Part shown: positions 30,182 through 32,990 of the stretch, piece after piece
Layout: each line of letters begins with the position of its first letter
How positions within the stretch are numbered: position 1 is the stretch's first letter
Translations under genes and position numbers: made by a program
The notes under the pieces: model-generated
Seen by the model: the letters and a program-made list of their open reading frames with translations, nothing else
What the model was told of the DNA's origin: nothing
The model's database searches: none
Origin: Bacteroidota bacterium
Lineage (GTDB): Bacteria; Bacteroidota; Bacteroidia; UKL13-3
NCBI GenBank assembly: GCA_947453415.1
Contig: CANGGG010000034.1
Coordinates: 1-33,167, forward strand
Direction: 5' to 3'
Length of the DNA stretch: 33,167 bases

Positions 30182-31186
30182 TTATTTCAAACGTTTCATA
30201 CCTGCAATGGCCAATTCGTAATTTGGATCTGCTTTTAACACAAACTCGTAATTTAGTTTTGCATTTGTAAAATCTTTTAAAGCTTCATAACAAAGGCCGC
30301 GCATGTAATATGCCGGCAAAAAATCGTTCATCATTCTTACACATATATCAAAATTATGAATGGCTTCTTTTAAAAATCCTGTTTCAAAATTTATGTAGCC
30401 TACATTGTAATAGCATTCAAAATAATCGGCATTTTTTTCAATTACTCTTCCATAATCTACCAACGCCATTTTAAATCTTCTTTCGTTTTGCCAAAAAGTA
30501 GCTCTAGCAAAAAAAGCATCTGCATCATTTGGTCTAATTCTAAGGCAAGCATTGATATATTCTAAAGCTAATTTGTTTTTTTGTGCCAATAATATTTTAG
30601 CTAAAATCATGTGACTGTCGTAGTCGTTATTGTCTAATTCTATGGCTTTTTGAAAATTAGAAATTGCCTTTACCGTATCACCTACATCTTTGTAATTCAT
30701 GGCTCGCAAGTGATAAGCATAAGCATTTGTTTTTTCTATTGCTATAATTGAATTAGCTAAATTGATTGATTTTTCATGCTCTTTGGTAATGTAATACAAA
30801 TCGGCCAATTTGATTTTAGCGTCTATAAATTCTGGTTGCAGTGCAATGGCTTTTTCGTAATTTTTAGCTGCTAAAATAGTTTTAGTTAAACTGTAATTAG
30901 TGCGCGCATACATAAAAAAATAGTTGGCATTATTCGAATCTAAAGTGCAGGCATCTTTAAAATCTATTGCTGCTCGATCCATAATTTTTGCTTCAAAATA
31001 TTTTGTTCCTCTTTCAAAATATAATTCCGCATTAGTAGGATTAGCTTGTATTTTTTCGGAAATTTCCTGAACTCCAGCTTTTATGGCTACAGAATCAATA
31101 TTGGAATTTGATTTGATTTGATTTGTATTGTTGCCGCAGGCAATAAAAAAAATGGATGCTAATAAAAGAAGGGTGTTTTTATACAT
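30182..31186 (-). CDS. TPR-repeat lipoprotein
   Basis: A 334-residue exported protein. The lipoprotein signal MYKNTLLLLASIFFIAC has lipobox FIAC, so it is membrane-anchored after processing. From about residue 50 to the end there are about eight tetratricopeptide repeats; the canonical pattern is clear in YFERGTKYFEAKIMDRAAID, YHLRAMNYKDVGDTVKAISN and YYNVGYINFETGFLKEAIHN. TPR arrays hold protein partners together; here the partner is unknown. No enzymatic domain is present. The gene is separated from the MgtC gene downstream by the palindromic repeat at 30108-30160. It is divergent from the four-helix-bundle gene. Most likely a periplasm-facing scaffold, but this is only family-level inference. 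Confidence 0.9.
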   Translation of the reverse strand: MYKNTLLLLASIFFIACGNNTNQIKSNSNIDSVAIKAGVQEISEKIQANPTNAELYFERGTKYFEAKIMDRAAIDFKDACTLDSNNANYFFMYARTNYSLTKTILAAKNYEKAIALQPEFIDAKIKLADLYYITKEHEKSINLANSIIAIEKTNAYAYHLRAMNYKDVGDTVKAISNFQKAIELDNNDYDSHMILAKILLAQKNKLALEYINACLRIRPNDADAFFARATFWQNERRFKMALVDYGRVIEKNADYFECYYNVGYINFETGFLKEAIHNFDICVRMMNDFLPAYYMRGLCYEALKDFTNAKLNYEFVLKADPNYELAIAGMKRLK

Positions 31187-31262
31187 TTTTGAAAAAAATT
31201 AGTCGAAATAAATTAAGTGTTTATTACAAGTCACAAAAAAACGTAATTTTGTTGGCACAAAA

Positions 31263-31298
31263 AAGTGTTTAAGTTCGATGTTCGAAAGTGTTTAAGTT
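31263..31298. repeat. Tandem direct repeats upstream of four-helix-bundle gene
   Basis: AAGTGTTTAAGTT occurs at 31263-31275 and again at 31286-31298, separated by a 10-nt spacer that, with the flanking bases, holds TTCGATGTTCGAA. A shorter copy (AAGTGTTTA) is at about 31215-31223. The exact reverse complement occurs after the gene at 31724-31736. Confidence 0.75.
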
Positions 31299-31333
31299 TT
31301 TTTGCTAAAATGTGGTGTGAGTAAATATTATTT

Positions 31334-31702
31334 ATGAGTAAAGTAGATCGTTTTGAAGATTTGGATTGTTGGAAAAAATCACGAGAACTAGTGAATGTTA
31401 TTTTTGATATTTGGGAAAATCAAATGAAAAATAAATATTTTTCCACGCAAGACCAAATAAAAAGAGCGGCTATTTCTACCATGAACAATATAGCAGAAGG
31501 ATTTGGTAGATATAGTAATAAAGAGTTTATTCGCTTTTTAGAATATTCAGCTGCTTCATCAATGGAAGTTAGAAGTATGTTATATGTTTTAATTGATAGA
31601 AAATATATTGATGAAATAGCATTTGAAAAATGTTATCAATTAGCAATCGATCACACTAATATTACCTTAGGTTTGATACGATATTTAAAAACAAAACTTT
31701 AA
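31334..31702 (+). CDS. Four-helix-bundle protein (S23 / 23S rRNA intervening-sequence family)
   Basis: A 122-residue cytoplasmic protein of the family named from ORFs found in 23S rRNA intervening sequences. It is structurally related to the Avd accessory protein of diversity-generating retroelements. The signature is clear: FEDLDCWKKSRELVNVIFDI, then QIKRAAISTMNNIAEGFGR, EFIRFLEYSAASSMEVRSML and a last amphipathic helix CYQLAIDHTNITLGLIRYLK. Free-standing copies are frequent in Bacteroidota genomes and their function is unknown. No reverse transcriptase, variable repeat or rRNA fragment is adjacent. The gene is framed by copies of AAGTGTTTAAGTT upstream and by the inverted form downstream, which suggests that gene and repeats moved as one unit. 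The promoter is not clear; the ATG at 31334 is the only good start. Confidence 0.93.
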   Translation: MSKVDRFEDLDCWKKSRELVNVIFDIWENQMKNKYFSTQDQIKRAAISTMNNIAEGFGRYSNKEFIRFLEYSAASSMEVRSMLYVLIDRKYIDEIAFEKCYQLAIDHTNITLGLIRYLKTKL

Positions 31703-31713
31703 CTAAAGATATA

Positions 31714-31756
31714 AAGCACTTTTAACTTAAACACTTTAAAACTTTAACACCTAAAC
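31714..31756. repeat. Inverted copy and degenerate ACTTTAAC-type repeats downstream
   Basis: AACTTAAACACTT (31724-31736) is the exact reverse complement of both upstream copies. It is followed by related units such as AAACTTTAACACC and CTAAACACT up to 31758. These fill almost the whole 66-nt gap before hmgA. Confidence 0.7.
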
Positions 31757-31768
31757 ACTCATAAAACA

Positions 31769-32926
31769 ATGGCATTTTACTACAAACAAGGACAAATTCC
31801 CGCAAAACGACATACACAATTCCGCAAACCTGATGGCAATTTATATGCAGAAGAATTGGTTTCTACCGAAGGTTTTAGCAGTTTGTATTCATTGGTTTAC
31901 CATTGTAATGCACCAACTTTGGTAAAAGAAATAGGCGAAGCTTATAGCATTGCGCCCAAAGCAGCCATTGAAAAAAACCTACAAAACCGTAGTTTTTTAA
32001 CTTTTAAAACTACCCCTGAAGCCGATTATTTGAAAAGTAGGGTTTATGTTTTGTTCAATAAAGACGTTTATTTGGCTGCTGCTGCTCCGCAAAAAAGCAT
32101 GACAGATTATTTTTTTAAAAATGCGGATGCCGATGAAGTAATTTTTATTCACGAAGGCTCGGGCGTTTTAAAAACAGTATACGGACAAATTGAATTTGAA
32201 TATGGCGATTACTTGGTAATTCCCCGCGGAACCATTTATCAATTGCATTTTGCAACAGAAAATAACAGGCTTTTTATTACTGAATCATTTTCTCCCATTC
32301 GTCCGCCCAAGCGTTACTTAAACCAATACGGACAATTAATGGAACATTCGCCTTATTGCGAACGCGATATAAAATTACCCTTACTTAAAGAAACTTTTGA
32401 CGAAAAGGGTGATTTTAAAGTTTTAATAAAAAAAGAGGACATGATTTTTCCTTATACTTATGCCGCACATCCTTTTGATGCCGTGGGTTGGGACGGATTT
32501 CAATATCCTTATGGATTTAGCATTCATAACTACGAACCAATAACTGGCCGAGTTCACATGCCGCCTCCAATTCACCAAACTTTTGAAGGACATAATTTTG
32601 TAATTTGTTCGTTTGTTCCTCGTTTGTACGACTATCATCCACTTTCAATTCCTGCGCCTTATAACCACAGCAATGTAGATAGCGATGAGGTTTTGTATTA
32701 TGTAGATGGTGATTTTATGAGCCGTAAACATGTGGAGCGTGGCATGATAAGTTTACATCCAAAAGGCATTCCACATGGCCCACATCCGGGAATGGCTGAA
32801 AAAAGTATTGGTAAAACTGAAACCAAAGAATTAGCAGTCATGATTGATCCATTTTATCCATTACAAATAACTGCTGCTGCCATGCAAATGGAGGACCCTA
32901 GCTATTATAAAAGTTGGGTGGAATAA
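31769..32926 (+). CDS. hmgA: Homogentisate 1,2-dioxygenase
   Basis: Iron(II) ring-cleaving dioxygenase that converts homogentisate to maleylacetoacetate in tyrosine and phenylalanine breakdown. The 385 residues form the usual bicupin, somewhat shorter than the roughly 430-residue eukaryotic enzyme. N-terminal GQIPAKRHTQFRKPDG and the first cupin (FIHEGSGVLKTVYGQIEFEYGDYLVIPRGT) are typical. The C-terminal cupin holds the likely iron ligands: His in YNHSNVDSDEVLYY with the Glu six residues on, and His in GIPHGPHPG. The sequence HMPPPIHQTFEGHNFVICSF is also conserved. The gene stands 66 nt after the four-helix-bundle gene. No fumarylacetoacetase or 4-hydroxyphenylpyruvate dioxygenase gene is within the window. 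Confidence 0.95.
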   Translation: MAFYYKQGQIPAKRHTQFRKPDGNLYAEELVSTEGFSSLYSLVYHCNAPTLVKEIGEAYSIAPKAAIEKNLQNRSFLTFKTTPEADYLKSRVYVLFNKDVYLAAAAPQKSMTDYFFKNADADEVIFIHEGSGVLKTVYGQIEFEYGDYLVIPRGTIYQLHFATENNRLFITESFSPIRPPKRYLNQYGQLMEHSPYCERDIKLPLLKETFDEKGDFKVLIKKEDMIFPYTYAAHPFDAVGWDGFQYPYGFSIHNYEPITGRVHMPPPIHQTFEGHNFVICSFVPRLYDYHPLSIPAPYNHSNVDSDEVLYYVDGDFMSRKHVERGMISLHPKGIPHGPHPGMAEKSIGKTETKELAVMIDPFYPLQITAAAMQMEDPSYYKSWVE

Positions 32927-32932
32927 GGGAAA

Positions 32933-32958
32933 TTTTGAATGTTGGGTTTTGAATGTTG
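32933..32958. repeat. Tandem TTTTGAATGTTG repeat
   Basis: Two exact copies of the 12-mer (32933-32944 and 32947-32958) are separated by GG, followed by a degenerate third (TTGAATTAGG). It is a short simple repeat just after hmgA. Confidence 0.6.
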
Positions 32959-32990
32959 AATTAGGTGTTAATGAAAAGTTGTAAATGTTT

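Follow-up and report, generated by a model that had tools for sequence, protein, structure and literature searches.

The window (the whole stretch of DNA analysed here, 33,167 nucleotides from a Bacteroidota bacterium) carries a small gene of the four-helix-bundle (4HB) family that lies between a TPR-repeat gene and an hmgA-like gene and is bracketed by inverted repeats. The features of the locus are as follows.

30182–31186, minus strand: TPR-repeat gene (TPR families), a divergent upstream neighbour that lies outside the unit
31225–31258, plus strand: conserved block that probably serves the hmgA-like gene as promoter; it precedes the unit and is also present in loci free of a 4HB gene
31263–31298, plus strand: upstream (U) arm, two exact copies of AAGTGTTTAAGTT flanking a degenerate middle
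31334–31702, plus strand: 4HB gene, 122 amino acids, 23S_rRNA_IVP / S23p family (PF05635, TIGR02436)
31724–31759, minus strand: downstream (D) arm, an inverted copy of the U arm with lag-8 repeats visible
31769–32926, plus strand: hmgA-like gene (homogentisate dioxygenase family), with the unit in its 5' leader
32933–32962, no strand assigned: gene-less TTTTGAATGTTG-type array 3' of the hmgA-like gene, its motif matching that of a 4HB locus in genome G005 (L139)

A four-helix-bundle gene between matched inverted repeats

Profile searches matched the 4HB protein to PF05635 (E 6.6e-29) and TIGR02436 (E 5.2e-27), in agreement with the family assigned in an earlier note on this DNA. Its sole match to a solved structure at E ≤ 0.01 was PDB 2gsc (XCC0516; E 3.4e-9), which PMC4990558, in its available text, presents as a homopentameric toroid of four-helix bundles. 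The hmgA-like gene scored 48 bits against PF20510 (cut-off 20.2) and 57 bits against TIGR01015, the latter far under the cut-off of that model. A second hmgA-like gene is present in the window's own genome (G000, C9:31757–32902), with 64% identity to the window copy. The stop codon of the 4HB gene ends at 31702 and the ATG of the hmgA-like gene is at 31769, leaving the gap of 66 nt that the earlier note had given.

That note had also described AAGTGTTTAAGTT as occurring twice before the gene and once, inverted, after it, and exact copies are indeed found at 31263–31275 and 31286–31298 on the plus strand and at 31724–31736 on the minus strand, followed by a copy with two mismatches at 31740–31752 (minus strand). 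Six matches with up to two mismatches in the window are not unusual (six were reached in 25 of 100 shuffles); the exact 13-mer triple, two direct copies and one inverted within 600 nt, is unique in the window, and none of 100 shuffled windows contained one. The arms align best with 31264–31298 set against 31724–31759, and a period is weakly visible within them (lag 8 in the D arm and lag 23 in the U arm). Taken alone, the window locus is not significant in a stricter test of shared 8-mers in 200-nt flanks (p 0.13), and the weight of the window observation therefore comes from its orthologues and from the family-wide test described below.

The window copy is inherited at the TPR/hmgA junction

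A TPR gene adjoins hmgA in 22 of the 30 hmgA loci found in a family search. The 4HB gene is present at two of these 22 junctions (G000 and G006, by tblastn with the window protein), and the other 20 gave no 4HB match. Because insert-free loci (such as L171 in G005 and L170 in G018) retain a block of the form TACAAGTC-CAAAAAAAC-TA--TTTTG in front of hmgA, the insert appears to sit between a conserved promoter and the hmgA-like ORF. The block is probably the promoter of the hmgA-like gene, and contains at 31244–31251 the sequence TAATTTTG, which we take to be the Bacteroidota −7 box.

Contigs from six other genomes carry the 4HB gene at the same TPR/hmgA junction, with identities to the window of 86–94% for the 4HB gene, 77–98% for the TPR gene and 91–99.7% for hmgA. 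The corresponding junction in G002, a member of the same genus, has no 4HB gene; there the left end of the insert is kept and is followed by an array of another motif. The 4HB gene is under strong purifying selection, with dN/dS values of 0.05–0.11 between the window copy and its six orthologues and of at most 0.13 over 21 pairs. The U-arm region shows 60–65% identity to three orthologues whose genes are 85–94% identical. Judging from these comparisons, the 4HB gene is vertically inherited within the genus while its arms are drifting fast, and since the window unit is inherited in this way at the TPR/hmgA junction, it has made no recent hop. Vertical conservation of the gene with divergent flanks had been named in the earlier note as counting against joint travel of repeats and gene. 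That pattern is seen here in part: the gene is conserved and the flanks diverge, but both arms stay matched to each other.

Matched inverted flanks across the PF05635 family

Matches to PF05635 were found in 39 of 40 genomes searched (the window's own included) and in 0 of 14 control genomes. For each gene, the 200 nt before it were compared with the reverse complement of the 200 nt after it by counting shared 8-mers. The 180 ORF matches were reduced to 149 (full-length match, stop codon, 200-nt flanks and distinct sequence) and then to 115 with less than 85% protein identity, while 400 neighbouring control genes were reduced to 159 by dropping those whose flanks lay near a 4HB gene; p-values came from 100 shuffles for 4HB genes and from 50 for controls.

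Matched inverted flanks at p ≤ 0.02 were found for 55 of the 115 non-redundant PF05635 genes, versus 4 of the 159 purged controls; before pruning, the counts were 68 of 149 4HB genes at p ≤ 0.01 and 12 of 400 controls at p ≤ 0.02. The other 60 loci, the window locus included, miss p ≤ 0.02. The window's own genome contains five PF05635 genes, four of which were flank-tested (L001 at p 0.01, L003 at p 0.18 and L004 at p 0.19). Sharing in direct orientation is raised as well (19/115 vs 4/159 at p ≤ 0.02), so that the excess of flank matches is mainly, not solely, inverted. By group, p ≤ 0.01 was reached by 19 of 45 loci in the genus, 4 of 9 in the family, 5 of 18 in the class and 40 of 77 on named contigs, and 11 of 22 loci from outside Bacteroidota (affiliation according to the sequence records) reached p ≤ 0.02. 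Co-directional neighbours flank 95 of 111 4HB genes on both sides.

The proposal of the earlier note that repeats and gene travel together gains from this excess, and is qualified by the window copy itself, which is old in the genus and stands at the same junction in the six other genomes.

In-frame stops interrupt 14 of 127 PF05635 matches (for example G000 C12:35038–35328), so that broken copies are common beside strongly conserved ones. In one metagenome-assembled genome, two loci (L087 and L103) share homology that begins some 45 nt ahead of the start and extends as far as the L087 gene does, and neither has significant inverted arms (p 1.0).

The arms are heptamer or octamer arrays that change together

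Rather than one fixed terminal sequence, the arms are locus-specific arrays of imperfect tandem heptamers or octamers, with recurrence at lags of 8, 16, 24 and 32 or of 7, 14, 21 and 28. Recurrence per 1000 at lag 8 is 27.8 upstream and 25.9 downstream (controls 4.8 and 3.5), and at lag 7 it is 13.5 and 13.3 (controls 5.9 and 5.8). Where a period could be assigned in both arms of the 115 loci it was concordant in 52 (34 with 8/8 and 18 with 7/7) and discordant in 2; it was assigned on one side only in 37 loci and on neither in 24, and 4 of 159 controls had the same period on both sides. On the sense strand the upstream arm is G-rich (GC skew +0.32) and the downstream arm has a skew of −0.17, with controls near 0.

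The motif is specific to the locus. The two arms of one locus share 6.80 8-mers on average, against 1.26 between different loci, and in 33 of 115 loci no other downstream arm among the 115 matches as well as the locus's own. Across 257 orthologous pairs, the score between the two arms of a locus (20.25) exceeds that between an arm and the other arm of the orthologue (17.47), and this holds in 14 of 17 independent groups, one of them a loose set of 45 loci (p 0.0075). Plain divergence predicts equal scores, and the excess thus points to pairwise replacement, gene conversion or joint constraint.

Motif and protein are also associated between loci. Non-syntenic pairs with protein identity of at least 50% show an excess of 3.2–3.8 shared 7-mers in the same over the opposite orientation, compared with about 1.0 in the remaining pairs, and the association of protein and motif over non-syntenic pairs was equalled in 0 of 1000 Mantel permutations. 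Repeat length agrees in 99% of non-syntenic pairs at protein identities of at least 55%, in 88% at 45–55% and in 38% below 35%; at identities of at least 45% the agreement is 0.907, against a permutation maximum of 0.604. Mapped on the protein tree, repeat length requires 10 changes versus 27.3 after shuffling (0/500), with the octamers coming mostly from contigs that were collected by similarity to the window protein. The signal is modest within the genus (3 changes vs 6.2; 7/300, orthologues included), is seen among loci not taken from contigs (5 vs 7.4; 5/300), and is absent among the contigs alone (3 vs 3.0; 300/300); a pair test limited to the genus showed no difference in the frequency of the same period (0.66 vs 0.61). 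Repeat length therefore clusters on the protein tree in a manner confounded with sampling, and more weakly than first thought.

Filled, gene-less and empty forms of the same junction

Filled and empty sites, which the earlier note had proposed to look for, do occur: in related genomes one and the same junction may hold a gene-bearing unit, a gene-less one or none. Among 22 sufB|sufC loci, three contain a 4HB gene, six lack a gene and have halves that match in inverted orientation (p 0.003–0.050), and 13 have neither (seven of less than 40 nt and six with p > 0.1). The sufB|sufC 4HB gene of G006 looks broken, giving two overlapping part matches. The metH junction, for which both halves were found in 20 loci, holds a 4HB gene in seven and a GxxExxY gene in two (G002, with inverted arms at p 0.01, and G018, not significant at p 0.50); three of the remaining loci have 0–9 nt and the others have other content. 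The gene-less sufB|sufC array of G000 shares 21 8-mers with the arms of the metH unit of the same genome, and that of G005 shares 22 with the metH unit of G006. Since related genomes differ in whether a given junction holds a unit, a gene-less remnant or neither, the class appears to be mobile over evolutionary time. No transposition between near-identical strains was seen, and inspection by eye revealed no target-site duplication at boundaries that the arrays blur.

SAM riboswitches (RF00162) lie near split metH genes (L230, L027 and L039), in the same operon as the metH-junction units. A gathering search with Rfam of 11 sources returned solely SAM riboswitches upstream of metH loci, and a known RNA family was on this ground rejected as the identity of the unit.

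Comparison across species suggests a single mobile unit made up of the gene and its arrays, for which no transposase could be recognised. For the window, we believe that the gene and its two inverted arms are, on balance, probably such a unit, resembling a 23S rRNA intervening sequence situated outside rRNA. The unit would consist of an array, the four-helix gene and the same array inverted, and would be inserted co-directionally with transcription, separating either two genes or a gene from its promoter, with gene-less remnants taking the form of array, loop and array. Each arm would be made of successive imperfect repeats of 7 or 8 nt, with motif and period common to both arms, which change together.

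Arrays without the gene

The repeats are not exclusive to the gene: the window motif also occurs beside unrelated genes, with no 4HB gene, at C43 and C69. The repeats at C43 and C69 appear to be related to the arms but have no gene. Having been retrieved with the window motif, they necessarily match the window locus, and outgroup loci match them too (182/200 and 180/200). Four other arrays in G000 have matches of their own, the sufB|sufC array best matching L001, the C9 array best matching L004 and two matching a locus in G005. When gene-less arrays were matched to 4HB loci, 10 of 12 arrays from the genus passed, and 6 of 11 from other genera also did so, mostly with smaller overlaps, which leaves the match only partly specific to the genus. 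At positions 2273–2400 of L014 (G000 C69), a TTTTGAATGTTG-type array without a 4HB gene lies beside a differently motifed and oppositely oriented array.

Arrays were counted in about 40 kb (25–40 kb) from each of 30 family genomes, using stretches free of 4HB and GxxExxY matches that were centred on housekeeping or transporter genes. The 21 arrays found (two of them at hmgA) were present in 8 of the 9 genomes that had five or more PF05635 matches, in 2 of 10 with 3–4 and in 1 of 11 with 2 or fewer. Array density correlates with the number of 4HB genes (rho 0.64, p 1.6e-4, 30 genomes; rho 0.60, p 0.02, 14 genus means), with a rho of 0.84 in the first 20 genomes and of 0.08 in the 10 that were added as a check. 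An unbiased scan of 775 kb yielded three inverted array pairs, versus none in shuffles: a gene-less hairpin in G002, a pair flanking an unrelated gene in G013 and a chance-like pair in G020. The pair in G013 (L317, 10176–11068), whose arrays are 838 nt apart, surrounds an ORF of 179 amino acids that is neither 4HB nor GxxExxY and that is presumably LOG-like.

Gene-less arrays of this kind, together with the co-variation of the arms and the inverted pair around an unrelated gene in G013, would be expected if the arrays came first, as hypermutable intergenic 7/8-nt repeats produced by slippage and template switching whose inverted halves are homogenised by recombination, with 4HB genes merely tolerated or retained among them. 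Slippage at heptamers is also among the explanations cited in the available portion of an earlier study of such arrays (PMC4679880). We consider this explanation unlikely, as it predicts neither the enrichment of matched flanks around PF05635 genes (55/115 vs 4/159), nor a motif common to non-syntenic protein relatives, nor the clustering of repeat length on the protein tree (subject to the sampling caveat given above).

RNA pairing, regulation and recognition of the ends

Pairing of the arms in RNA offers a different account, in which base pairing between the arms of the mRNA would create a long stem with the ORF in its loop, acting, as rRNA intervening sequences do, through cleavage by RNase III or through autoregulation. 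The window transcript does fold with its arms paired (z −4.67; 0/100 shuffles), folding of the sufB|sufC element of G000, which has no gene, gives a single hairpin (z −4.15; 0/200), and the preponderance of co-directional neighbours (95/111 genes) is as such an element would have it. Selection on sense-RNA pairing predicts that mismatches compatible with G.U pairing should outnumber A.C mismatches, and the reverse was observed over 55 loci (79 vs 127; p 0.001), leading us to reject a sense-RNA stem under selection. A stem alone also leaves the 7/8-nt period unexplained, and we regard an RNA element as quite unlikely.

The 4HB protein might instead be a regulator that binds its own flanking arrays and gene-less arrays at other sites as operators or translational sites. 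Such a role would accord with the strong purifying selection on the gene, with arrays that (by eye) often touch start codons, and with the translational control proposed for TAACTGA heptamers in the available text of MacGregor 2015 (PMC4679880). It is very unlikely in view of sites that vary between close relatives at the same operon junctions and of the drift of motifs among orthologues, a pattern that does not resemble a conserved regulon.

Movement of the unit in trans by a Y1 (REP-associated) transposase or a reverse transcriptase is scarcely credible: counts of Y1 and 4HB genes correlate over 30 genomes (rho 0.48, p 0.007), but array density is uncorrelated with Y1 (rho 0.23, p 0.22) or reverse transcriptase (rho −0.35, p 0.06), and four 4HB-bearing draft genomes have no Y1 match (G012, G041, G044 and G049, with 3, 11, 3 and 2 PF05635 matches) and seven none to RVT_1 (the window's own genome, G006, G013, G016, G019, G041 and G045, with 5 to 11 PF05635 matches each). 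The window's own draft genome has three Y1 matches and gave 0 matches to RVT_1 in a Pfam search. Both enzymes were rejected as required partners from these counts in draft genomes, where an enzyme gene may have escaped assembly, and the unit's lack of a transposase of its own, suggested in the earlier note, agrees with the existence of 4HB-bearing genomes that have no match to one or the other enzyme.

Because the wobble test speaks against selection on sense-RNA pairing, and because Pfam searches gave no reverse transcriptase in the window's own genome and no Y1 in the four 4HB-bearing genomes named above, we favour recognition of the ends as duplex DNA. On this view the four-helix protein, a relative of which has a solved structure described as a pentameric ring, would recognise the iterated ends of the unit in their inverted arrangement, and the host or a separate enzyme would supply the catalysis needed for movement. 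The association of gene and arrays, the co-variation of the arms, the differing states of the sites and the selection on the gene are observations; movement as a unit is our inference from comparison between genomes, and it would involve binding by the protein and a moving enzyme.

A broader proposal, which we advance tentatively and hold to be doubtful as a whole, is that these units represent a new kind of mobile element in which a pentameric 4HB protein reads iterated 7-/8-nt duplex ends. Ends and protein would co-evolve, each unit having private, fast-drifting and internally matched repeats and the protein subfamily setting the unit length of the repeats. The heptamer and octamer arrays of Bacteroidota and other phyla would then be descendants that lack the gene, and GxxExxY nuclease genes would be either a sister class or another cargo.

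Relation to known elements

MITEs and passenger-gene transposons have terminal inverted repeats, cargo or none, no transposase of their own, and filled and empty sites. The 4HB units resemble them in their inverted ends, in occurring with or without a gene, in having no recognisable transposase of their own, and in their filled and empty sites; unlike MITEs, they have ends that differ from copy to copy and match within a copy, and neither a target-site duplication nor a cognate transposase was found for them. Ends that differ between copies yet match within each copy are not known from ordinary transposons. REP/RAYT systems pair palindromic intergenic repeats with a small associated gene; the partner gene here is PF05635, not Y1, and the four 4HB-bearing genomes named above are without a Y1 match. 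Avd of diversity-generating retroelements belongs to a related four-helix-bundle fold family, and unlike such retroelements the unit resides in a genome with no RVT_1 match.

In protein and layout the units resemble 23S rRNA intervening sequences with an S23p ORF (such as that of Coxiella), which, in the available text of PMC4990558, encode the same PF05635 family between complementary, stem-forming ends, likewise have a scattered, selfish-looking distribution and likewise interrupt a transcription unit. The ends of the window unit are also complementary and can form a stem, as seen in the arm alignment and in folding. The unit is not located in 23S rRNA: it lies between the TPR gene and the hmgA-like gene, and no Rfam family matched the window in a gathering search. 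Unlike a 23S rRNA intervening sequence, the window unit stands between a promoter and a protein gene, and other units stand between protein genes of operons; their ends are iterated 7/8-nt arrays with a locus-specific motif, and gene-less forms exist at the same junctions.

Arrays of the heptamer TAACTGA are known from Beggiatoaceae, Cyanobacteria and Bacteroidetes (MacGregor 2015, PMC4679880). As far as the available text of that study describes them, they too are imperfect tandem heptamers, intergenic, often situated just before starts, strain-specific and subject to indels of repeat units. They differ from the arrays reported here, which form inverted pairs around a 4HB gene, include octamers and have many motifs. 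The main text of PMC4679880 makes no mention of 'four-helix', 'intervening' or 'S23', and a literature search that covered few subscription papers found no paper linking PF05635 genes with such arrays. Heptamer arrays themselves have been published already (MacGregor 2015), and the available text of that study does not link them to 4HB genes.

A link between arrays and 4HB genes would join two puzzles, namely free-standing S23p/4HB genes with no assigned role and unexplained intergenic heptamer arrays, and if it is right both could be tested together through binding of a protein to its own array. It may also indicate a possible route by which S23p elements enter rRNA genes.

GxxExxY genes

Genes of the GxxExxY family (PF13366) apparently have the same architecture with another protein: 15 of 32 have inverted arms at p ≤ 0.01, of a CACAGAG or CGCAGATTT type (L230 in G002; L257–L286). 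A GxxExxY gene was rejected as a required partner of the 4HB gene, as G005, G012, G014 and G035 have 4, 3, 4 and 6 PF05635 matches and 0 matches to PF13366. At 24 of the 32 GxxExxY loci no 7/8-nt period was assigned on either side, and because most are without this period their flanks are perhaps a parallel class.
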